A DNA stretch of 34,672 nt, taken from Anaerolineae bacterium (GTDB lineage Bacteria > Chloroflexota > Anaerolineae > Aggregatilineales > UBA3940). Below the pieces are notes generated by a model. It saw only the letters and a program-made list of their open reading frames with translations. It made no database searches and was not told the DNA's origin. The position numbers and the translations under genes are program-made. Every line of letters starts with the position of its first letter. The stretch's first letter is position 1. Below, piece by piece: positions 10,821 to 32,007 of the stretch. The stretch is from NCBI GenBank assembly GCA_016926255.1, contig JAFGOY010000073.1, positions 1-34,672 of the forward strand. The letters are read 5' to 3'.

Positions 10821-11558
10821 GTGAAAATCGGAAAAATCTTGTTATGGATACTGTACGCGGGGTTCGCTGCCGCGTTGGTCACCGGCGGCGTGATCCGCAC
10901 CCAGAGCCGCCTCGAAGTCGTCAGCGCCGAGCATGAATATCGAAGCGACCGGCAGGGCGGCGGGATCGGTGCGGGCGGCGAGGGCCAGGGCCAGAACCAG
11001 GGTCAGAGCAGCGGCGACCGACAGGGCGGCGGGATCGGTGCAGGTGGTGAAGGCCAGGGCCAGAATCAAGGCGATGGACAGGGGTCGGGTCGCGGTGATG
11101 GCGGGCAGGGTCAGAGCAGCGGCGACGGCGGAGGCCAGGGCCAGAATCAGGGCAGTGGTGGACAGGGCGGCGGAAATGGTCAGGGCGGTGACGGACAAGG
11201 CAGTGGAGGTCAGGGTCAGGGTAACGGTGGTCAGAATGATGATAACTACCAGTATCGTGACGAAGACGAAATCCTTACTGCCGACGACTGGCTGACCGAA
11301 TCAGGGGAAGCGGTTGAAGTCAGCAGCGACCTGCTGCTGGTCGATACCGGCAGCGATGACGACCTGCTGATCGAGGGGCGGGCGTGGCGTTACGCGCTTG
11401 AGGAAGGCTTCTCGGTGCAGGTCGGCGACGCTCTCGACGTATCCGGTTACTGGGAGGATGGCGAGTTCAAACCGGGGGTGATCGAGAACCAGTCGACCGG
11501 GGAGACGGTCACACTGCGCGATCCGGATGGCCGCCCGATGTGGTCGGGCAACCGGTAG
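10821..11558 (+). CDS. Membrane-anchored Gly/Gln-rich protein with C-terminal OB-like domain
   Basis: 245 residues from a GTG start with GGAG six bases upstream. Residues 6-25 form a signal anchor (ILLWILYAGFAAALVTGGVI). Residues ~40-140 are low-complexity Gly/Gln/Ser/Asn sequence with an imperfect 23-residue duplication (DRQGGGIGAGGEGQGQNQG occurs twice; the DNA repeat unit is 69 bases, starting about 10948 and 11017). The C-terminal ~95 residues (from DEILTADDWLTE) form a compact beta-rich domain (LIEGRAWRYALEEGFSVQVG, LDVSGYWEDGEFKPGVIEN, LRDPDGRPMWSG) resembling a small OB fold. It lies outside the membrane if the anchor is N-in. Pairing with the DUF4405 protein suggests it is a partner, perhaps redox-related; that is inference. 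Confidence 0.82.
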   Translation: MKIGKILLWILYAGFAAALVTGGVIRTQSRLEVVSAEHEYRSDRQGGGIGAGGEGQGQNQGQSSGDRQGGGIGAGGEGQGQNQGDGQGSGRGDGGQGQSSGDGGGQGQNQGSGGQGGGNGQGGDGQGSGGQGQGNGGQNDDNYQYRDEDEILTADDWLTESGEAVEVSSDLLLVDTGSDDDLLIEGRAWRYALEEGFSVQVGDALDVSGYWEDGEFKPGVIENQSTGETVTLRDPDGRPMWSGNR

Positions 11559-11960: not shown

Positions 11961-12530
11961 ATGGATCATTCACTCACTTTGCCCGCAGGCAAGCGGCGGC
12001 TGCGTGAGCGCCCGGCGGTGAAGCCATCGGTCTTTGCCCGCATCTACGAGGACTACTTCGACCGCATCTACAGCTTCGTGCGCTACCAGGTGGCCGCCGA
12101 TGCCGATGCCGACGACGTAACCGCCATCGTCTTTGAGCGAATACTGACCGGGATCAACCGTTTTGACCCGAAGCGCGGCGATTTCACCGGCTGGGTGTTC
12201 GGCATCGCCCGCAACACGCTGCGCGAATATTACCGCCAGCGCCGCGCCCAATCGTCAATCGACTGGCAGCGCCTGGAGCAGATCAAAGCTCCCGGCCAGC
12301 TCCCGGAGCAGGTCATCGCCCGGCAGGAGGAAAACCACCGCCTGCTCGATGCGGTCGCCCGGCTCAGCGAGCGGGAGCGTGAAATCCTCGCCCTGAAATT
12401 CGGGGCCGGGTTGACCAACCGGGCGATAGCGAAAGTGGCCGATCTGAGTGAAAGCAACGTCGGGACGATACTCTACCGGTCACTGCGTCGGCTTCGCGGC
12501 CTGTTAGGAGAGGAGAGCAGCCGTGAATAA
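11961..12530 (+). CDS. RNA polymerase sigma factor, sigma-70/ECF type
   Basis: 189 residues with two conserved modules. Region 2 (about 24-95) reads VFARIYEDYFDRIYSFVRYQ, then DADDVTAIVFERIL and FTGWVFGIARNTLREYYRQRR, binding the -10 element and core polymerase. Region 4 (about 128-180) reads LSEREREILALKFGAGLTNRAIA and LSESNVGTILYRSLRRLR, the helix-turn-helix for the -35. Regions 1 and 3 are absent, as in group 4 factors. The ATG at 11961 has ACGGAG upstream; the ATG at 11957 is out of frame. The stop overlaps the start of the next gene (GTG at 12523 inside CGTGAATAA), so the pair is translationally coupled. This is the standard arrangement for a sigma factor and its membrane regulator. Confidence 0.95.
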   Translation: MDHSLTLPAGKRRLRERPAVKPSVFARIYEDYFDRIYSFVRYQVAADADADDVTAIVFERILTGINRFDPKRGDFTGWVFGIARNTLREYYRQRRAQSSIDWQRLEQIKAPGQLPEQVIARQEENHRLLDAVARLSEREREILALKFGAGLTNRAIAKVADLSESNVGTILYRSLRRLRGLLGEESSRE

Positions 12531-13431
12531 GCATATCGATCAGCCCGCTCTGCAAACCGACCTCGCCGACAATCCGATCGATGCCCTGCTAGCAGGCGTG
12601 CCGCTGGAAATGCTGCCCGTTCAATATAATCTGAGCGAGCAGGACTGGCAGGCCCTTGAGATGGCCGATCAGTTAGCCAGTACCGATCTGGCGTCACACA
12701 GCCAGATACGAGGAGCGTTGAAATTGTATATGACACAGGAAATAGCAGCCCAACAGGAAACCTATGAAGCACAGGCCCGGCGGAAGGGAAAGAAGCGGTG
12801 GAGCGTTTCACCCTGGCTGATCATCACCGGGGTCATAATAATGTTGATCGTTATGGTGATGATCGTTTTCCTCATCGACTCTGCGCCCCCACCCGACTCT
12901 TTTGAGTATGCTGGTGCCCCATCAATCGCCGATGACCCCGACTTTTATGCTGGAGAATCCCAGTACGGGTACCCGGTCTATACGCTGGACGGCATCGTCT
13001 TTGGCGATCTCTTTACCCTGAGCCAGATGATCGTCAAAACCGACGACTACGGCAATTCGACCGATGGGATCATGCTGGTTTTTAACCTGGCTCGCCCGGT
13101 GCGCAGCGGTCGATACAGCATCGTTCTGGACAAAATCTATGTCGAGACGATGGATTCCCATGGCGCGGAATCATTCCGGCTGATCATGCCCAACGATCAG
13201 CGGTTGACCTTTGCCGTCGAGTATGATCTTTACTACGATTACGTCCAGCCTTCATATTTCTACCGGTTGGAGATTGTCGATACCGAGACCAGCGAGCGTC
13301 TGACGCTCCCCAGCGGCGCGGATTTCTTCGAACTGCGCCCGGTTCCGGCCTCGATAGAACCAGCTTCCGATACCGGTATCGTCGATGAACTGCCGACCGC
13401 TGCCCCACCATCCGTAACACCCGAATCGTAA
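12523..13431 (+). CDS. Single-span membrane protein, putative anti-sigma factor
   Basis: 302 residues from a GTG start overlapping the sigma stop by 8 bases, preceded by AGGAGAGGAGAG. The cytosolic N-terminal ~93 residues are helical (LSEQDWQALEMADQLAST) and include no obvious zinc-binding HxxxCxxC motif. One transmembrane helix follows (about 96-118, WLIITGVIIMLIVMVMIVFLI). The extracytoplasmic ~180 residues are beta-rich (YTLDGIVFGDLFTLSQMIVKT, GIMLVFNLARPVRSGRYSIVL) and end in a Pro/Ala-rich tail. The anti-sigma role is inferred from position and topology; the N-terminal domain is not a class I recognise. Confidence 0.8.
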   Translation: MNKHIDQPALQTDLADNPIDALLAGVPLEMLPVQYNLSEQDWQALEMADQLASTDLASHSQIRGALKLYMTQEIAAQQETYEAQARRKGKKRWSVSPWLIITGVIIMLIVMVMIVFLIDSAPPPDSFEYAGAPSIADDPDFYAGESQYGYPVYTLDGIVFGDLFTLSQMIVKTDDYGNSTDGIMLVFNLARPVRSGRYSIVLDKIYVETMDSHGAESFRLIMPNDQRLTFAVEYDLYYDYVQPSYFYRLEIVDTETSERLTLPSGADFFELRPVPASIEPASDTGIVDELPTAAPPSVTPES

Positions 13432-15633: not shown

Positions 15634-16188
15634 TCAGTTCGCTGACACTCCCCGCCTGCGCAGCCGGGGAATGAACATCCCGACTTCGCGCATGTAGTCC
15701 CGGTAGTCCTCGCCGAACTTGTCGAGCAGCAGTTTCTCCTCATGCCGGGCGATGAACACGTAGAATGCGACTATCACCAAAAACACGCCCGCCGCCGCCA
15801 GCGAGAGGGCATGGGCCAGGAAACCGACATACACCAGGATCGCCGCCAGGTAAATCGGGTGGCGCACCACGCCGAACACACCGTCGCGAATCACCGCTGG
15901 TTCCGCGCGTTCTTCGCCGAACACTGTCGACAGCCCGCGCCAGGCCAGGAGCCCGGCAAACAACTGTATCGCCGACCCGGCAATGGATCGCACCGCTGAT
16001 GGGATCACATCACGCAGGATTACCGACTGGCGCAGGATAAACGAATCACCGATCCATACGGTCAGAAATATCAGCAGCAGGATCAACTGGCCGATGTCGC
16101 CCAGGCGATGCTCGCCCGCGAGGTCTTCGCGTTCTTCAAACCGACCGTGGTGATGCCCTCGTTTTTTCGCTTCTTGCTGCTCCGTCAT
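15634..16188 (-). CDS. Isoprenylcysteine carboxyl methyltransferase-like (ICMT/PEMT) membrane protein
   Basis: 184 residues. After a charged, His-rich N-terminus (KKRGHHHGRFEERED) come four or five transmembrane helices. The family signature follows: GVFGVVRHPIYLAAIL (cofactor-binding loop with RHP), then ARHEEKLLLDKFGEDYRDYMREV, the C-terminal E-E-x-x-L-x-x-x-F-G-x-x-Y motif. Members of this family in bacteria methylate varied membrane-associated substrates, so none can be named. It is co-directional with the cold-shock gene. A second, divergent member is at 20853-21575. Confidence 0.9.
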   Translation of the reverse strand: MTEQQEAKKRGHHHGRFEEREDLAGEHRLGDIGQLILLLIFLTVWIGDSFILRQSVILRDVIPSAVRSIAGSAIQLFAGLLAWRGLSTVFGEERAEPAVIRDGVFGVVRHPIYLAAILVYVGFLAHALSLAAAGVFLVIVAFYVFIARHEEKLLLDKFGEDYRDYMREVGMFIPRLRRRGVSAN

Positions 16189-16219: not shown

Positions 16220-19200
16220 TTACGGTGCCACGAAGGATATCAGCCAATCCTCAAAGGCCGAAAATCCAGGCAGGCCCCCATAGATTGTGTACAGGTTATA
16301 GGTCGACCACGGGCAGGCATCCGGTATCGATCCCCACTGCGTCGTCGAGGCGATCTCCTCACCGGTTTGGGCATCGTAGAGGACGATAGTCATTGATTTG
16401 CGGTAGCGATCAATGGTGCCGGACGGCACGCCGGATTGATAGTAGTACTGGCAGGACTGAACCAGCGCGGATTCCTCGGTCGCACAGGCTGCCAACTGCG
16501 GTGGATGCTCCCGATCGGCTTTCCATTCGTCTGGAATATCACTGGCAAAACCGGAAGACTGCTGCATCACCAGCGGGTGTGGGCCTTCGCCGTCAGGGTC
16601 ATAAGAACCCATGGTAGCTATTCCAACACCATCCCCGCAGATCGATTTTTCAACGAACGGTTCGATGGGGTCCGCCCAGATGAGTTCGATATCGGTGAGG
16701 TCAGCACCGCTGATAGCACTTCTCTCGAACATGGTACCGTCGAGCAGTGCGCCTGAGAGGTCGATACTATACATATCAGCCCCCAGGAAATTGGTATCAA
16801 TCAACGATGAGCCGCTGAATGACGATAAAGTAATCGTTGACCCACTGAAATCGGTACCTGCCAGTGTGGATTGGCTCAGGTCAACACTTTCGAGCTGTGC
16901 CTCCTTCAGTGTGGTCTGGCTCAAATCAGCCGATTGTAGATTGACTCCATTCAACTGGACGCCATTGAGCGATATACCTGAGAGATTGGTCTGGCTGAGG
17001 TCTCCGCCATCGAATACGGCAGATTCCAGGTCTGTGCTGGTGAGGTCCAACCCTGACAGGTTTATTCCCGAAAGCGCAGCTTCGCTCAAGTCCGCATCGG
17101 ACAGATTGGCTTCCCGCAGGTCGATGCTGTTGAGCCGCGCCCCGGTCAGGTCGGCACCGGCAAGGTTTACATCCAACGCCTGTGATTGGGTGTTGAACAC
17201 GAAGATATCGTCGACGAAATCGTCTGATCCGAAGCTGAAAGCTATATACTGGCCCGATTCCGAGGCTGCATAGGTGGTCCAATACGTGTCGCTCATGAGG
17301 AATTGATTCACTTCCCCGGTATCGATGTGGTATATCGCAGCACGGTTGGCTGTATAGTTGTATAACAACAGCGTATCGTTGTCGAGCCACTCCAACGGGA
17401 CGCCGCCACCCTGCTGTTCGTCAATCTGCGCTATGATCTCGAAAGAACCGGTATCCCAGATCACGACACTCTGGCTGATGGTATTTGCGGCCAGCCTATC
17501 GCTCTCAGGTGAGTAAACGATAGCCCCCCATTGTTCTGGCTCGCCGCCGGTTGATCCGAGGTCATCGCCGGAAATCAAATGTACATCCGCGCCGCTTTCG
17601 ATATCCTGTATCTGGATGTCGGTGGTTTCTACCACCATTGCAAGGTGCGAATCGGTTATATCCCAACTGGCGTAACCGATATCGTCTGACAGACTGGTAT
17701 AGTCCCACAGCGGTTCATCCGGGGAGTCTTTCCAGTCCCATACCCTGTAGCCTGTATCTGTCCTTACACCCAGGTAGCGGCTGTCGGGTGACCATATGCT
17801 CCATGGGAATTGATCCATCCCTGGAAATGACAGCGCAACCGGTTCAGCATCGGAGGCGCTGTCGATCAAGAGAACAGTGTCCTGAAACGACTGCAGCATA
17901 ACTACATGCTGATTATCAGGTGCCCAATGAAAATACGTGAACGTGTAGGGATATTCGTCGCTTTCAACCGGGCCGTACGAGCGGATTTTACCATCCGCTG
18001 CATACCATATGGATATCCCTTCTTCGTTAATTCCGGCTATTCTGGTTGCATCGGGTGAACAACTCAGTGAAGAATACAGCGGAATGATTTCCTCACTCAG
18101 CATTTCGCCGGTGCTGATGTCCCACTGCCGGATCATGGTGCCGGGGCCACGTTCGTCGGTTTCATCGACCTCGCTGCCCGTCATCAGGATTTCAGCGCCG
18201 TCGGCGGAACTCCAACTCAGCATGTTTGTGCGGCCAACCTCCGACGACAGGACAAGTGACCCGCTGCCGAGTGTAATCTCGCGTAGATTAGCGCCTTGGA
18301 GGTTGGCACCATACAGCAGCGTTGAAGTCAGGTTCTGACCTTCGAGTATCGCTTTGCTGAGGTCGGCGTTACTCAGGTCTGTGCGAATCAGGGTCAGATC
18401 AGTGAGGTCCATGCCGGACAGGTTCGCACCGGTGAGGTTTGCACCGGTGAGGTTTGCCCTCGACAGCGTCCAGTCACGCAGGTCTTTCCCACTGAGATCA
18501 ACGCCGCTGAGGTTCGCGGCGGCCATGTTTGCACCAGCCAGTTCAACGTCAGATAGATCGAGGCCGGATAGATCGGCTCCCGAGAGGTTCGCGCCCTGAA
18601 GTGATGCGCCTGCTAAGTTCCACCCGGTAAGGTCACGCCCTGCCAGATCGACATCGCCGAGATCGGCCCCGGACAGCGATACCCCATCGAGGACGGTCTT
18701 GAACAGGTTTGCGCCGTGCAGGTTCGCGCCGCTGAGGTTTGAATCGGTCAGGATCAGGTAGGAGAGATCGGCTTCGCTGAGATCGGCGCCCTGCAGTGAT
18801 ATCGCCCCCATGTCCAATCCGTCCGGGCCGCCGTAGTTGAGGTTCGCGCCGTTCAGATCGGCATCAGTCAGATCGGCTCCGGTCAGTTCTATATCACTCA
18901 GGTCCATGCCGCTCAGGTCGACTCCATCCATTTGTGCGCCCGTCAGGTCGGCCCCGGTCAGGGTCGTGTCTGTCAGGTCAAGCCCATTGAGGATAGCATT
19001 CTCCAGGTCGGCATCGCTCAGGTCAGTGCCGGTCAGAACTGCATCACTCAGATCGGCACCACTCAAATCCGCCCCGGTCAGAATGGCGTTTGTGAGATCG
19101 ACTTCACTCAGATTTGCGTCAACCAGCAGGGCATTGGTCAGGTCTTTGTCGCTGAGATCTCGCCCGGAGAGATCGCGGCCCGTCAGGTCTGCGTCGGGTT

Positions 19201-19261
19201 CGTATTGTGTGCCGCAGGCCAGCCAGGCTAAAACCAGGGCCAAGTAATGCCCAAATAACAT
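16220..19261 (-). CDS. Giant pentapeptide-repeat lipoprotein with inserted beta-propeller; N-terminus probably frameshifted
   Basis: 1013 residues. Residues ~24-327 are an unbroken pentapeptide-repeat array (A(D/N)LxG pattern), a right-handed quadrilateral beta-helix. Residues ~330-695 are WD40/propeller-like blades (WSPDSRYLGVRTDTGYRVWDW, YSPESDRLAANTISQSVVIWD). A second pentapeptide array follows (~697-857), then a ~155-residue C-terminal domain with five cysteines. The N-terminus is hydrophobic and ends WLACG, a lipobox-like Cys. The ATG at 19261 has no ribosome site at proper distance. AGGAGG (19286-19281) sits six bases before a different ATG (19274) in another frame, whose product starts MNRKHVIWALLG. 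Removing one G from GGGCC at 19237-19241 would join that start to LVLAWLACGTQYEP and give a classic lipoprotein signal. Confidence 0.9.
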   Translation of the reverse strand: MLFGHYLALVLAWLACGTQYEPDADLTGRDLSGRDLSDKDLTNALLVDANLSEVDLTNAILTGADLSGADLSDAVLTGTDLSDADLENAILNGLDLTDTTLTGADLTGAQMDGVDLSGMDLSDIELTGADLTDADLNGANLNYGGPDGLDMGAISLQGADLSEADLSYLILTDSNLSGANLHGANLFKTVLDGVSLSGADLGDVDLAGRDLTGWNLAGASLQGANLSGADLSGLDLSDVELAGANMAAANLSGVDLSGKDLRDWTLSRANLTGANLTGANLSGMDLTDLTLIRTDLSNADLSKAILEGQNLTSTLLYGANLQGANLREITLGSGSLVLSSEVGRTNMLSWSSADGAEILMTGSEVDETDERGPGTMIRQWDISTGEMLSEEIIPLYSSLSCSPDATRIAGINEEGISIWYAADGKIRSYGPVESDEYPYTFTYFHWAPDNQHVVMLQSFQDTVLLIDSASDAEPVALSFPGMDQFPWSIWSPDSRYLGVRTDTGYRVWDWKDSPDEPLWDYTSLSDDIGYASWDITDSHLAMVVETTDIQIQDIESGADVHLISGDDLGSTGGEPEQWGAIVYSPESDRLAANTISQSVVIWDTGSFEIIAQIDEQQGGGVPLEWLDNDTLLLYNYTANRAAIYHIDTGEVNQFLMSDTYWTTYAASESGQYIAFSFGSDDFVDDIFVFNTQSQALDVNLAGADLTGARLNSIDLREANLSDADLSEAALSGINLSGLDLTSTDLESAVFDGGDLSQTNLSGISLNGVQLNGVNLQSADLSQTTLKEAQLESVDLSQSTLAGTDFSGSTITLSSFSGSSLIDTNFLGADMYSIDLSGALLDGTMFERSAISGADLTDIELIWADPIEPFVEKSICGDGVGIATMGSYDPDGEGPHPLVMQQSSGFASDIPDEWKADREHPPQLAACATEESALVQSCQYYYQSGVPSGTIDRYRKSMTIVLYDAQTGEEIASTTQWGSIPDACPWSTYNLYTIYGGLPGFSAFEDWLISFVAP

Positions 19262-19466
19262 GTTTGCGATTCATGGGGTGCCTCCTGAAAGGGTAATGAC
19301 AACAGCCGCTCTCCAACTCAGGTAGCATACACTGACTCATTTGAAGGGACAAAATCGCTGCCCAACCTGCTCGATTGGCCATTGAGTATTCTTCGACATT
19401 CCTGTAAGATGATAGCAGGGTTTTTCTTCTCTGAACGCACCTTTCCGCCCGGACAGGAGTGCCGCT

Positions 19467-20840
19467 ATGAAAGTCTTTCCTTACCCGTTCGACAACCGCA
19501 AGATCAGCAAGAACGTTGACCAGTGGGTACCGCTGAAGGCCGGGGAGTCTTACATCGCCCTCCTCAATCCCTATCACCCGTTCTCGAAGGCCCATGGCAT
19601 CCTGATCACCTCCCGGCGCGTGGTCGAATTCGAGAAGAGCACCATCGAACATGACCTGCTGTTGAACGATATCGGCCCGGTTATGGTCGAGGTCGAGATC
19701 GACGAGAACAATTACGCGGCGCTCACGTTGAAGATCAACGGCAGCAGCGGGACGCTCGAACAGCGTTTTACCGGCGACGAGTGGAACGCCCTGAATGAGT
19801 TTCTCGATTACCTGGGTAAGGCCGCCGGGAAATCCTACGATGCGGTGGTGAAGGCCGCACTCGAACCGCGCCGCCAGAAATTCCTGGAGACGGTCGATAC
19901 ACCGCTGGCGCAGATGTCGATGACTTCCACCGTCCCTCTGCATTCGGGCGAAACTTACCTCGTCTACCATGCCAACCGGATCGCCGCAGGGACGCTCGAA
20001 TATGCGCTCACCAACAAGCGGCTTGTCGAGTACAACACCGTGACCGGGATCGCCTGGGAAGTGCCGCTCTCGGCTATAAAATCGTGCAACTATGGTGTGA
20101 TGGGCTACCTACAGGTGTTCGATAAGGCCGGGAACAAACGCACGATGTTCGTGGAGAACGTCTATCACTATGAGGCCTTCCGCAGCCTGATCGACGATGC
20201 ACGCCGGGGTCGGCTGGACAAAAAGGAGAAACCGGCCCGGACAGCCGCCGAACTGCCGCCGCTTCACTATCCGCTCGACCTGCTGATGGAATCACGCGGG
20301 TGGATGGAGGGATTCAAGTACGAGGTGTACGACGCCGAAAAGAAGCTCGCCTTCCTCGCCGAGTGCCGGGATAAACAGACAATGTATGTCGCACGCGGCG
20401 ACGTGATCGTCGCGGTCATCCGCATGGTGAAAGATCAGGAACACTACCGCTTCGAAACCGCCGATGGGCAGCCTGCCGGTGAAATCAAGAAGTTGAAGGA
20501 AGGCTTCCTCTCACCGGAAAGCGTGATCATCCTGGATGGGCAGGGGGACTCTGTTGGTACGGTCGACAAGAAGCCGGGGGTCAAGGCGTGGGCAAGCCGG
20601 GCTTATTACCTGCTGTGGGGCGGCCAGCCTGCCCTCGAAATGCACTGCGAATTCCAGCACTTCCGCACCGGCTTCAAGATCGACAAGCTGCGTACCATCC
20701 CGGAGGAGATCGAGCAGATGTTGTTGAACTGCGCCTTTGTGCTGCGCCTGCTTGAGCCGGACATCATGGAAGACCCCATCCGGGGAGTCGTCAAAGACAT
20801 CCGGGGCGATTTCAAGGATTCTGTCGACGGGCTGTTTTGA
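19467..20840 (+). CDS. Protein with two PH-like domains and a tubby/LURP-like C-terminal domain
   Basis: 457 residues, no signal peptide. Two PH-like beta-barrel modules appear in sequence: about 20-110 (LKAGESYIALLNPYHPFSKAHGILITSRRVVEFE) and 155-250 (LHSGETYLVYHANRIAAGTLEYALTNKRLVEYNT). Both show the bacterial PH pattern in which a 'NKR' or 'SRR' turn precedes a strand. The C-terminal ~180 residues (YEVYDAEKKLAFLAECRDKQTMYV, GEIKKLKEGFLSPESVIILDGQGDSVGTVDKK) resemble the tubby-C/scramblase-like (LURP-one) fold, which often contacts membrane lipids. Domain calls rest on pattern resemblance. AGGAG lies eight bases before ATG. It converges with the gene ending at 20853. Confidence 0.72.
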   Translation: MKVFPYPFDNRKISKNVDQWVPLKAGESYIALLNPYHPFSKAHGILITSRRVVEFEKSTIEHDLLLNDIGPVMVEVEIDENNYAALTLKINGSSGTLEQRFTGDEWNALNEFLDYLGKAAGKSYDAVVKAALEPRRQKFLETVDTPLAQMSMTSTVPLHSGETYLVYHANRIAAGTLEYALTNKRLVEYNTVTGIAWEVPLSAIKSCNYGVMGYLQVFDKAGNKRTMFVENVYHYEAFRSLIDDARRGRLDKKEKPARTAAELPPLHYPLDLLMESRGWMEGFKYEVYDAEKKLAFLAECRDKQTMYVARGDVIVAVIRMVKDQEHYRFETADGQPAGEIKKLKEGFLSPESVIILDGQGDSVGTVDKKPGVKAWASRAYYLLWGGQPALEMHCEFQHFRTGFKIDKLRTIPEEIEQMLLNCAFVLRLLEPDIMEDPIRGVVKDIRGDFKDSVDGLF

Positions 20841-20852
20841 TCGGGATACCGG

Positions 20853-21575
20853 TTACCATATTCCCGGAAACAGCCGATACCGCGTCTGCTGAGTGAATGC
20901 CTCGTAGCCTTCTAATTCTGCCCGAAGCGTTCGATCCTCAAGCGCCGTTCGCACGATGAACACAACAGTCGCCAGCACGCAGGGGATCAGCGCCCAATAT
21001 GAGCCAAGCAGGAACCCGGTTGCGAGGTTATAGAAAATCGCTCCCACGTAGCCGGGGTGCCGCACGATCCGGTAAGGCCCGCCCGTATACACGGTCTGGT
21101 TTTCCTGTATCTGCACCGTTGTCGTGAAGTAAGCATTCGAATAGGTCGCCCAGAGAATCAGCACCCAGCCAAGCGCGAAGACCAGCGCCCCGCCGATATG
21201 CAGTCCCAGGCTCATCCCCGGCCCCCAGCCGTTCCGTAAGTCCAACGGCGCGACGATCCAGCCGATCATCCCCAGCAGCGACGCTATCGACAGCACCCAG
21301 CGATCCCACTTCTTCGCATAGGCCCGGATTCCCGTCGAACGTTCCGCCAGCAGCGCCGGGTTGGTCGGGAGGAGCAGCAAAACGTGGACGACCGCAGCGG
21401 CGGCCATCAATCCGATGAACGCCCAGCCCCACAACCAATCCCACCTGCCGCGAAGCAGCATCAGCAGCGCGGCGTAAAAGATAATTCCACCCACCGATTT
21501 GTAGATGTAGGATCGAACGCCCTTCTGGATTTCGGCTTCCGTCAGCACCGATTGTTTGCCTGTTGTCTCAGCCAT
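20853..21575 (-). CDS. Isoprenylcysteine carboxyl methyltransferase-like membrane protein, second copy
   Basis: 240 residues from ATG 21575 (MAETTGKQSVL), with GGGAGGAA six bases upstream; the frame seven codons longer is unlikely. There are five or six transmembrane helices. The signature is YTGGPYRIVRHPGYVGAIFYN, with RHPGY as in ICMT/NnrU-like methyltransferases, then LEDRTLRAELEGYEAFTQQTRYRLFPGIW at the C-terminus, matching E-x-x-L-x-x-x-x-x-G-Y-x-x-(F/Y). The substrate is unknown. It is distinct from the 15634-16188 protein, with a longer N-terminal half. Confidence 0.9.
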   Translation of the reverse strand: MAETTGKQSVLTEAEIQKGVRSYIYKSVGGIIFYAALLMLLRGRWDWLWGWAFIGLMAAAAVVHVLLLLPTNPALLAERSTGIRAYAKKWDRWVLSIASLLGMIGWIVAPLDLRNGWGPGMSLGLHIGGALVFALGWVLILWATYSNAYFTTTVQIQENQTVYTGGPYRIVRHPGYVGAIFYNLATGFLLGSYWALIPCVLATVVFIVRTALEDRTLRAELEGYEAFTQQTRYRLFPGIW

Positions 21576-21858
21576 AATGTTCCTCCCTCTACACAACCTT
21601 GAATGTTATTGTCACCTATCTGCCGGGCAGCCATCCCCACCCGGCGTGGGGACTGATCGAGTGATATACTTTCCAGGTATCAAATCCACGCAAACGGCTT
21701 CACCCGGTTGGAAAAATGTGTATCACTGGTTTATAGTGATGGTAGGCTGTACGATGTGGCGGTATAGTCTGATTGTTGCAAATGTTGTCAGATAACCTGT
21801 TGGTTTTAGGCCATCGTCAATTCCAAACTGAGATGGCTTTTCATCGGGAGTCCTTATT
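21576..21858. other. Intergenic region between divergent ICMT-like and histidine kinase genes
   Basis: 283 bases, no convincing gene. It contains ATCCCCACCCGGCGTGGGGA (21632-21651), a GC hairpin. ATCACT (21722-21727) and AGTGAT (21735-21740) form an inverted repeat enclosing a TATAGT. A second TATAGT at 21763-21768 is a candidate -10. The inverted repeat would suit an operator for the kinase gene. Confidence 0.4.
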
Positions 21859-24372
21859 TTGGAGCAGCAGCGGCTGTTGCATAATCCAATACCGACCGTA
21901 GTAATCATTGTTGCTGTACTCTTCGGCTTATACCTTTCGAGCCTCTACAACTACCTCCTCTTCCACTCACTCGCCGAAATCGCCAGCGCAGTCATTGCTT
22001 GCAGTGTATTCGTCGTTGCCTGGAATTCAAAGCGCTACTTCGACAACAATTACCTGCTCTTCCTGGGGATATCGCTGCTCAGTGTGGCGCTGCTCGACCT
22101 GACCCACATGCTCGCCTATAAGGGCATGAATGTCTTCTCCGGCTACGATGCGAACCTGCCCACCCAGCTATGGATCGCTGCACGCGGCGTCCAGAGCCTT
22201 TCGCTGCTGATCAGCCCGCTGTTTCTACACCGCAAGATGAACGCCGGGCTGGTGTTCTCCGGGTATGCGCTGATCACGCTCATCCTGCTGGGGCTGACTT
22301 TCGGCGGCTGGTTTCCCGTCTGCTATGTTGAAGGGGTTGGGCTGACACCGTTTAAGGTGATCAGCGAATACGTCATCTCAGCGATTCTGCTGGCTTCGAT
22401 GGGCCTGCTGATCCGGCTCCGCAAGGGGTTCGACCAGGGCACGCTGTGGTTGATGCTCGGCTCCATCGGGCTGACGGTTGTCGCCGAACTGCTCTTCACC
22501 TTTTACGTCAGTGTCTACGGGTGGCCTAATTTGCTGGGCCATCTTTTCAAGGTCGCCGCGTTCTACCTGATCTACCGCGCGCTGATCGACGTGGGTCTTG
22601 TCGAACCGTTCCGGCTTGCCTTCGGCCCCATCCAGCAGACACAGAAGAATCTACAGAAACACCGCGATCTCCTCGCCGAACTGGTCGCCGAGCGGACGGC
22701 GGAGCTGGTGCAGAGCAACGTCCAGCTCAAGCAGGAAATCCAGGAGCGCCAGCAGGCCGAAACCGCGCTCAAACAACGCGCTGCCGAACTGGAACTGATC
22801 AACCAGGTGTCCGGCCAGATTGCATCGATGCTGGATATCGACGAGATGCTCACCACCGCCGCGCAGTTGATCAGGGAGAGCTTTGATTACCAGCAAATCT
22901 GCATCTACATGATGGACGAAGAAAGCGGCTTACTGAATCTTAAGGCGAATGTTGGGATGTTTTCCGATCAATATCCCGCCGGTCACCAATTGAAGCCGGG
23001 TGAGGGAATGGTTGGATGGGTGGCACAGGAAGGAAAACGACTGATTGCCAACCGCGTGCATGGCGAGAAACACTATATGAGCCTGTTCGACAAAGACTTC
23101 AGCCAGGCCAAGCTCTGTGTCCCGATCCATGCCGCCAACCGGGTTCTCGGCGTGCTGGCAATCCAGAGCGAGCAGGAAGACGCCTTCGACGAGAATGATA
23201 TCAGGCTCCTGGAAACACTCGCCGATCAATTGGCGATAGGCAGCCAGAATGCGCAGATGGTCAAGCAGTTGGAGTACTATTCGAGCGGGCTGGTACAGGC
23301 CGTCGCGGAGCGCACGGAGGAACTCCTCAGAAGCAAAGAGCGCACCGAAGCCGTCCTCTACTCCGTCGGCGAAGCGGTGATGACCATCTCTGCCGATGGG
23401 ATCATCCAGCAGGTCAACCCGGCTTTCACCGAGCAGACCGGCTACTCCGGCGACGAGGTGGCGAAGCGGCATTACCGGCTGATCCTGCCGGACAGCACAG
23501 CCTCCCCGGATTTACTCAAACTGGCAGTCGTCGCCTGGCAGTCCCGCCAGCCCTGGCGCGGGGAGCTGGATGTCCGCCGGAAAAACGAGACGGTCTACGA
23601 GGCTGCGGTGACCATCACGCCGCTTCTGGGCAGCGGGGGGAAGATCGATGCCTTCGTGGGCAGCATGCGCGACATCTCGTACTTGAAAGAACTCGACCGG
23701 ATGAAAGACGTTTTCCTCTCGACCGCCGCCCACGAGCTTCGCACGCCGCTGACGGCCCTGCGCGGTTTCAGCGAGATTCTGCTCACGCGGGAACTCGACG
23801 AGCGGCGGGCGCGGCGCTACCTGACCATGATCAACGACCAATCGACACTGCTTTCCCAGATCATTAACGATCTCCTCGATCTGTCCCGGTTGGAAGCAGG
23901 GTTTAACCTCGAGATAGAACGGCAGCCGGTTCATTTCTACGAACTGGCGCAGACGGCGCTTCAGCCCTTCAAAGAGGGGGCTGTCAAACATGCCTTCCGC
24001 AACAAGATACCCGAAGAGGCTCCCCCCGTCTGGGGGGATACCCTTCGGCTGAAGCAGTTGGTCACCAACCTGGTTTCGAATGCGGTGAAGTATTCGCCCG
24101 GTGGCGGCCTGGTGACGCTCAATGCGCGGACGATCAATGGCTTCCTGGAGGTCAGCGTCGAGGACGAAGGGATCGGCCTGCTGCCCGAACAAATGGCTCA
24201 CCTGTTTGAGAAATTCTGGCGGGCCGATACGTCGAACACGGCAATCGGCGGCACGGGGTTGGGGCTGGCGATCTGCAAGCTGATCGTCGAAAGGCACGGT
24301 GGCAAAATCTGGGCCGAGAGCGAGTACGGGATCGGCAGTACATTTACTTTCACCGTGCCCTTTCCCAAATAG
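21859..24372 (+). CDS. Membrane sensor histidine kinase, MASE3-GAF-PAS-HisKA-HATPase
   Basis: 837 residues from a TTG start with GGGAG about nine bases upstream. Residues ~13-250 form a seven-helix membrane sensor of the MASE3 type (HSLAEIASAVIACSVFVVAWNS, LDLTHMLAYKGMNVF, HLFKVAAFYLIYRALI). A coiled coil (~255-300, LVAERTAELVQSNVQLKQEI) follows. The GAF domain spans ~300-465 (VSGQIASMLDIDEMLTTAAQLI, GEGMVGWVAQEGKRLIANRV, LCVPIHAANRVLGVLAIQS). The PAS domain spans ~490-605 (AVLYSVGEAVMTISADGIIQQVNPAF). HisKA has the phosphorylated His625 in AAHELRTPL. The ATPase shows the N-box NLVSNAVKYSP, then DEGIGL and GGTGLGLAI. All catalytic boxes look intact. No receiver domain is fused and no regulator is adjacent; the lone regulator at 26585 is a possible partner. 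Confidence 0.96.
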   Translation: MEQQRLLHNPIPTVVIIVAVLFGLYLSSLYNYLLFHSLAEIASAVIACSVFVVAWNSKRYFDNNYLLFLGISLLSVALLDLTHMLAYKGMNVFSGYDANLPTQLWIAARGVQSLSLLISPLFLHRKMNAGLVFSGYALITLILLGLTFGGWFPVCYVEGVGLTPFKVISEYVISAILLASMGLLIRLRKGFDQGTLWLMLGSIGLTVVAELLFTFYVSVYGWPNLLGHLFKVAAFYLIYRALIDVGLVEPFRLAFGPIQQTQKNLQKHRDLLAELVAERTAELVQSNVQLKQEIQERQQAETALKQRAAELELINQVSGQIASMLDIDEMLTTAAQLIRESFDYQQICIYMMDEESGLLNLKANVGMFSDQYPAGHQLKPGEGMVGWVAQEGKRLIANRVHGEKHYMSLFDKDFSQAKLCVPIHAANRVLGVLAIQSEQEDAFDENDIRLLETLADQLAIGSQNAQMVKQLEYYSSGLVQAVAERTEELLRSKERTEAVLYSVGEAVMTISADGIIQQVNPAFTEQTGYSGDEVAKRHYRLILPDSTASPDLLKLAVVAWQSRQPWRGELDVRRKNETVYEAAVTITPLLGSGGKIDAFVGSMRDISYLKELDRMKDVFLSTAAHELRTPLTALRGFSEILLTRELDERRARRYLTMINDQSTLLSQIINDLLDLSRLEAGFNLEIERQPVHFYELAQTALQPFKEGAVKHAFRNKIPEEAPPVWGDTLRLKQLVTNLVSNAVKYSPGGGLVTLNARTINGFLEVSVEDEGIGLLPEQMAHLFEKFWRADTSNTAIGGTGLGLAICKLIVERHGGKIWAESEYGIGSTFTFTVPFPK

Positions 24373-30438: not shown

Positions 30439-32007
30439 ATGCTGTATCCAATATCGAATTACTATCGACAGGTCACCGATCTGTCGGGGATGTGGGAAAT
30501 ACGCTTCGACCCGGACGACGAGGGTCGTGAGGCAGGCTGGGCCGCCGGCTTCGAAGGCGGTCAGCCGATAGCCGTTCCGGCAAGCTGGAACGAGCAGTTC
30601 GCCGCCGCCCACGACTATACCGGCGCGGCGTGGGTTCAACTGCAATTCGACCGCCCCTGGGGCTGGGCCGATCAGCGCTGCTACCTGCGCTTCGACGCGG
30701 TCAGCTACCGCGCCGAAGTCTGGCTCAACGGCGTGGCGATGGGCGAGCACGTCGGCGGCTATCTGCCCTTCGAGTTCGACGTGATGCACTACCTCGCCCC
30801 GGTCGACAACATGCTGGTCGTCCGGGTGGAAGGATCGCCGGATGGGGGCGGAGCCTGCGGCATCCAGCGCCCGACGATGATCTATACCCGGCCACACGGA
30901 TCGATCCGCAGCCTGGCCGTGCAGACCGGGATCGACGGCCCGACCGGGCTGGTGCGCGCCGTCATGGAGCGAACGGCAGGCGAGCCGGTGACCGCCCGCT
31001 TTGTGCTGCGCGGTTTCGATATCGAACTGGTCGAGCAGGCCCGATCCGACGAGCAGCTCACCGAGGTGAATTTCAGCGTGCCCGACGCGGAACTATGGGC
31101 ACCGGGCGCGCCGAACCGCTATCAACTCGATGTCGACCTTCTCGGCGACGAGGGGATATTCGATCAATACACGCTGCCGGTCGGAATCCGGTCGGCGGCG
31201 GTCGATGGGGATCAACTGCTGCTGAACGGCGAGCCGGTCGTGCTGCGCGGCTTCGGCTACCGCGACGATTTCCCGGTGACCGGCGAGGGGGTGACCCCGG
31301 CGGCGATCATCAGGGATTTCGAATGGATGCAGCGGCTGGGGGCGAACGCGCTGCGAACGGCAGGGCATCCCTGCTCGGAGGAGGCGATCCGGCTGGCCGA
31401 CCGGCTGGGGCTGATGGTGGTGGTCGAAGCGCCTGCGCTGCCCGATTCCGGCAACCCGGGGGCGGAGCGCAGGCGGGAAGAATCGGCGCAGGTTGTCTGC
31501 CAGATGATCGAGCGCGATAAGAATCACCCGTCGGTGATCGCCTGGTGCGTGGCGAACGACCCGGTGGATCGGGCGGGGACGAAGGCGCTGGTCGACATGG
31601 CGAAGGAACTCGACCCGGCCCGCCCGGTGGCGATAGCCAGCCGCCGGGCGGCGGCGGATTCATTCGAGTTTTGCGACATCGCCTGCCTGACGGTCGACGC
31701 GGGGCAAGGCGGTGCCGACTTACCGGCGGCGGTCGGGGCGGTCGGCAGGCCGGTGATGATCGACGCGGCAGGTGCGGAAGCGGTCGCCGGGCTGCACGCC
31801 GATCCGCCGGAGCCACTGAGCGAGGAACAGCAGGCCGATCTGCTGCTCGATGCCATCGAGGTGATGGAGTCGATCCCGGCGGTGGTGGGGCAGTTCATCG
31901 GGATGCTGTGCGATACTCGGGGGGATCGGTCGGGCGCACTGACGCGGGATCGCAGACCGAAGCTGGCGGCGTGGCGCGTCGGGGAGCGGTGGAGAGATAA
32001 AGGATGA
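30439..32007 (+). CDS. Glycoside hydrolase family 2 (beta-glucuronidase-like) protein with both catalytic glutamates replaced
   Basis: 522 residues. The three GH2 domains are visible: jelly-roll (DLSGMWEIRFDPDDEG, LRFDAVSYRAEVWLNGVAMGEHVGGYLPFEFDV), immunoglobulin-like (~165-265, ending GIRSAAVDGDQLLLNGEPVVLRGFGYRDDFP), and barrel (RTAGHPCSEEAIRLADRLGLMVVVEAP, NHPSVIAWCVANDP). The acid/base Glu expected in the N-E pair after NHPSVI is Asp374 (ANDP). The nucleophile, Glu in the T-E-Y-G motif of glucuronidases, aligns with Ala443 in MIDAAGAEAVAGLH. The sugar-recognising N-x-K loop near LTRDRRPKLAAW is also changed. The frame is otherwise intact, so this looks like a retained non-catalytic relative. 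No signal peptide, hence cytosolic. The next gene overlaps its stop by four bases (ATGA). Confidence 0.93.
   Translation: MLYPISNYYRQVTDLSGMWEIRFDPDDEGREAGWAAGFEGGQPIAVPASWNEQFAAAHDYTGAAWVQLQFDRPWGWADQRCYLRFDAVSYRAEVWLNGVAMGEHVGGYLPFEFDVMHYLAPVDNMLVVRVEGSPDGGGACGIQRPTMIYTRPHGSIRSLAVQTGIDGPTGLVRAVMERTAGEPVTARFVLRGFDIELVEQARSDEQLTEVNFSVPDAELWAPGAPNRYQLDVDLLGDEGIFDQYTLPVGIRSAAVDGDQLLLNGEPVVLRGFGYRDDFPVTGEGVTPAAIIRDFEWMQRLGANALRTAGHPCSEEAIRLADRLGLMVVVEAPALPDSGNPGAERRREESAQVVCQMIERDKNHPSVIAWCVANDPVDRAGTKALVDMAKELDPARPVAIASRRAAADSFEFCDIACLTVDAGQGGADLPAAVGAVGRPVMIDAAGAEAVAGLHADPPEPLSEEQQADLLLDAIEVMESIPAVVGQFIGMLCDTRGDRSGALTRDRRPKLAAWRVGERWRDKG

Follow-up and report, generated by a model that had tools for sequence, protein, structure and literature searches.

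Gene content of the window

The window (the whole stretch of DNA that was analysed, 34,672 nucleotides) carries on its minus strand a large gene with pentapeptide repeats and a lipobox. Its features are as follows.

19281..19286, minus strand: Shine-Dalgarno sequence AGGAGG, 6 nt before ATG 19274
19119..19274, minus strand: short frame from ATG 19274, 51 residues plus stop, beginning MNRKHVIWALLG...; probable native start
16220..19261, minus strand: long frame, 1013 codons, ATG 19261 start without a ribosome site
19214..19216, minus strand: lipobox Cys codon, residue 16 of the long frame, in a CGxxxEP/KP motif common to relatives
18272..19198, minus strand, approximate: first pentapeptide-repeat block, about residues 22-330 (Pfam PF00805, PF13576)
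17177..18229, minus strand, approximate: propeller-like insert, about residues 345-695, with weak propeller/WD40 matches below curated cut-offs
16691..17173, minus strand, approximate: second pentapeptide-repeat block, about residues 697-857 (Pfam PF13599, best stretch 704-779)
16223..16702, minus strand: C-terminal domain with four Cys invariant in six sequences and no Pfam family

The gene and its divergent neighbour (19467-20840, plus strand, 457 residues, without a match in Pfam or NCBIfam at E 0.001) are flanked by isoprenylcysteine/phospholipid methyltransferase-like membrane genes at 15634-16188 and 20853-21596, both on the minus strand. The first of these begins about 31 nt past the lipoprotein stop. 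Elsewhere in the window, a sigma-70-family-like gene and the gene that follows and overlaps it, with a single membrane segment (11961-13431, plus strand), look, from their translations, like a sigma/anti-sigma type pair. A glycoside hydrolase family 2 protein (30439-32007, plus strand) has only 522 residues, and its TIM-barrel model is matched to position 244 of 302. No Rfam match was found in the window.

Protein architecture

The long-frame protein was searched against Pfam, giving PF00805 at E 4.4e-94 as well as PF13599 and PF13576. The PF00805 model, which spans 8 repeat copies, matched 14 stretches of the protein. The pentapeptide families listed by NCBIfam included Qnr, HetL and effector models, nearly all below cut-off, and the sole match above it, to the Alr5209 family, reflects the repeats; no Qnr, HetL or effector function is therefore to be read from them. 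Structure prediction for the long frame was of poor quality (mean pLDDT 40). The protein resembles other pentapeptide repeat proteins (PF00805) in its long runs of A(D/N)LXX-type repeats and differs from them in the lipobox at its front, the propeller-like insert and the extra C-terminal domain. The literature found on lipoprotein genes of this kind extended to a review of pentapeptide repeats (PMC8145042), and in its text the words lipoprotein, propeller and WD40 are absent.

The C-terminal domain, roughly 150 residues long and with conserved Cys, is met repeatedly in the order (L032-L036, L043-L068, L098-L110; 16223-16702, minus strand, in the window), where it stands behind or before varied partners, including pentapeptide repeats, WD40-like repeats and other modules. 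It was found in 36/154 genomes of the order (E 0.001), in 15/396 genomes of the class under a tighter limit of E 1e-12, and at cut-off in 44 ORFs of the loci sampled, with L037 and L038 left out. The four invariant Cys would fit an exported, disulfide-bearing domain. Its profile gave no meaningful match among solved structures, the best one (E 0.027, BRCT-type chains) being taken as chance, and only scattered weak matches in Pfam, with no family.

Two reading frames at the start

A perfect AGGAGG at 19286-19281 (minus strand) lies 6 nt before ATG 19274, whose frame translates as MNRKHVIWALLGPGF... (also given as MNRKHVIWALLGPGFSLAG...) and runs up to a stop at 19119. The preliminary description had assigned this ribosome site to ATG 19274 and noted that its frame leaves the long frame, with correct coordinates. 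The long frame (16220-19261, minus strand) translates as MLFGHYLALVLAWLACGTQYEP... and is +1 relative to ATG 19274. An in-frame TGA at 19273 overlaps ATG 19274, so that a start of the long frame earlier than ATG 19261 is excluded. Neither at ATG 19261 nor at the next in-frame start, TTG 19243, was a Shine-Dalgarno match found, the rule being at least 4 bases of AAGGAGGTGA at a spacing of 3-12. As the long frame is open for 1013 codons, it is under selection or was so until recently.

In the long frame a Cys follows a hydrophobic stretch (LVLAWLAC-GT), as in a lipobox. The W at -3 departs from the commonest lipobox. From ATG 19261 the n-region (MLFGHYL) contains neither Lys nor Arg; these are provided only in the frame of ATG 19274 (MNRKHVI), where the opening residues, MNRKHVIWALLG, resemble the part that the signal peptide lacks at its front. 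A loose lipoprotein pattern was applied to the sampled genome and matched 14 ORFs, with Lys/Arg ahead of the last 8 residues in 12 of them. The two without were the gene studied here and window ORF 21859-24372, which is probably a false match of the pattern. Judged by these features, the pentapeptide-repeat protein would be exported by Sec and anchored by a lipid.

Comparison with relatives

A search in nine genomes of the family, including the gene's own, gave matches in all nine, mostly to the pentapeptide repeats. The lipobox, CGxxxEP/KP motif, repeats and C-terminal domain are shared with three genes, L035 (genome G004), L034 (genome G003) and the paralog L036 from the same genome. Stop to stop, these measure 551, 665 and 496 codons, compared with 1013 for the long frame of the window gene, and in L034 a propeller is placed after the C-terminal domain, whereas the window gene has its propeller-like insert between the pentapeptide blocks.

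Homologs beginning MLFGHYLALVLAWLAC behind a properly spaced ribosome site had been named in advance as the finding that would speak against a frameshift. The three nearest relatives instead start in frame, with Lys/Arg in their n-regions and a ribosome site that is clear in L035 and L036 and weak in L034. They are only three and distant, at 45-51% identity to the window gene over the aligned N-terminal stretch. Among C-terminal-domain genes more widely, a lipobox with a start was present in 12 rows, corresponding to 11 distinct genes (L007 is L034), and Lys/Arg preceded the lipobox in 11/11 when the longest of the starts shown was taken; this count depends on the choice of start, and the shorter one listed for L011/L036 would give none there. 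When the order was searched with the first repeat block, many pentapeptide proteins were returned, and a scan of 97 loci added no further CGxxxEP-type lipoprotein. No same-species or close homolog that would settle the frame was found in the family genomes, the genome contigs (two weak matches only) or the viral contigs (no match).

The ribosome site, the charge of the n-region and the relatives together give good support to the one-base offset between start and long frame, as first proposed. Its assignment to GGGCC was too precise. That run is present at 19237-19241 on the plus strand, yet both frames are open across the entire n- and h-region, and it is therefore one of several possible junctions.

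Chance of an out-of-frame ribosome site

Fourteen stretches of the genome that carries the gene (277,001 bases; 311,673 with the window) were sampled, and L036 was also taken into the test. The test covered genes with 200 or more codons between stops and flagged those in which every in-frame start lacked a ribosome site while an ATG in another frame, no more than 60 nt away, possessed one. Of 199 genes only the window gene was flagged (1/192 without L036). The power of the flag is low, with 12/54 planted near-start shifts recovered.

These counts bear on the reading that ATG 19261 is the real start, with a short signal peptide free of Lys/Arg. Translation would then be Shine-Dalgarno-free or rely on ribosomes loading 13 nt upstream, and the upstream ATG would be a coincidence or part of a leader. 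The frame from ATG 19261 is intact, with the lipobox at residue 16, and by our rule an in-frame start with a ribosome site was also absent in 73/199 sampled genes, so that its absence alone says little. The missing site is, however, joined by an n-region unlike that of the relatives, and out-of-frame ATGs with a site as good as that of ATG 19274 are rare: at internal out-of-frame ATGs of the sampled genes, matches of at least 5 bases occurred in 60/1411 and of at least 6 bases in 7/1411. We consider use of ATG 19261, one of the options originally offered, unlikely.

Nature of the offset

To estimate how often the assembly carries frameshifts, a coding-frame model was run on the 311,673 bases. 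It called 6 frameshifts at a penalty of 1e-4, 14 at 1e-3 and 1 at 1e-6, and recovered 103/173, 113/173 and 74/173 planted mid-gene deletions, respectively. Several of these calls are close to gene ends and could be spurious. At the start site no frameshift was called at any of the three penalties; the out-of-frame stretch there is short, and the recovery figures come from mid-gene deletions. Two of the six calls at 1e-4 fall in the window, at 11233 (plus strand) and 26311 (minus strand), both close to gene starts; the latter sits in an alpha/beta hydrolase that looks intact and is perhaps spurious. Frameshifts are thus not abundant in the sampled assembly, by which the sequencing error first suggested is weakened as an explanation, yet remains one. 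A sequencing or assembly error and a real recent mutation stand at about even odds.

Phase variation commonly targets lipoproteins in other bacteria, which would favour a reversible off state, present in part of the population, as the preliminary description had also considered. Phase-variable genes are marked by a simple-sequence tract, invertible repeats or silent copies, and none of these was found here. Near the site no homopolymer is longer than 4, and a short-unit tandem repeat is absent there, the only tandem repeats in 18800-19500 having a period of 15 bases and lying inside the repeat-coding part. No inverted repeats were found in 19050-19466, and the region is single-copy in the genome. 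Mixed reads at the run, proposed as a sign of phase variation, would be insufficient alone, since a strain mixture gives the same picture. A reversible off state was thus rejected as highly improbable.

Programmed +1 frameshifting, by which both frames would be joined in translation, agrees with the direction of the offset. Against it, the first frame has no stop near the junction, being open to 19119, and the leader RNA has no unusual structure, its folding being weaker than that of shuffled sequences (z about +2). Such programmed sites are recognised by a stop at the shift site and an arrangement kept in relatives, and the arrangement occurred in 0/3 of them. Recoding was likewise rejected and is the least probable of the readings considered.

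Interpretation

ATG 19274 is very probably the start of the native gene, with the contig shifted by one base at some point ahead of the lipobox Cys. As a whole we give a probability of roughly 0.8 to the reading that the native gene begins at ATG 19274 behind AGGAGG and would encode a Sec-exported, lipid-anchored pentapeptide-repeat protein, and that a one-off event, either a sequencing or assembly error or a recent private mutation, would have put the contig one base out between the start and the lipobox Cys. The cause of the offset is most likely ordinary rather than a switch, and the offset itself would be unregulated. If it is real, ribosomes loading at AGGAGG would yield a 51-residue product, and the lipoprotein from ATG 19261 would be made poorly or not at all. 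That the offset is both real and maintained, as a reversible allele or recoding event tuning the export of a large surface scaffold, seems very unlikely. A maintained switch would make the case matter more; nothing here points there.

For annotation, an automatic gene caller would pick ATG 19261 and could miss or misjudge the export signal. The window protein is modular, a probable lipoprotein in which pentapeptide repeats are combined with a propeller-like insert and a Cys-bearing C-terminal domain, and the case is largely ordinary. Taking its parts together, the protein is most likely a lipid-anchored extracytoplasmic scaffold whose propeller and C-terminal domain would be displayed for binding. 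Its architecture, in which the propeller-like insert separates two pentapeptide blocks and the Cys-bearing C-terminal domain is a recurring one that lacks a Pfam family, may be of use in studies of the surface proteins of this group.
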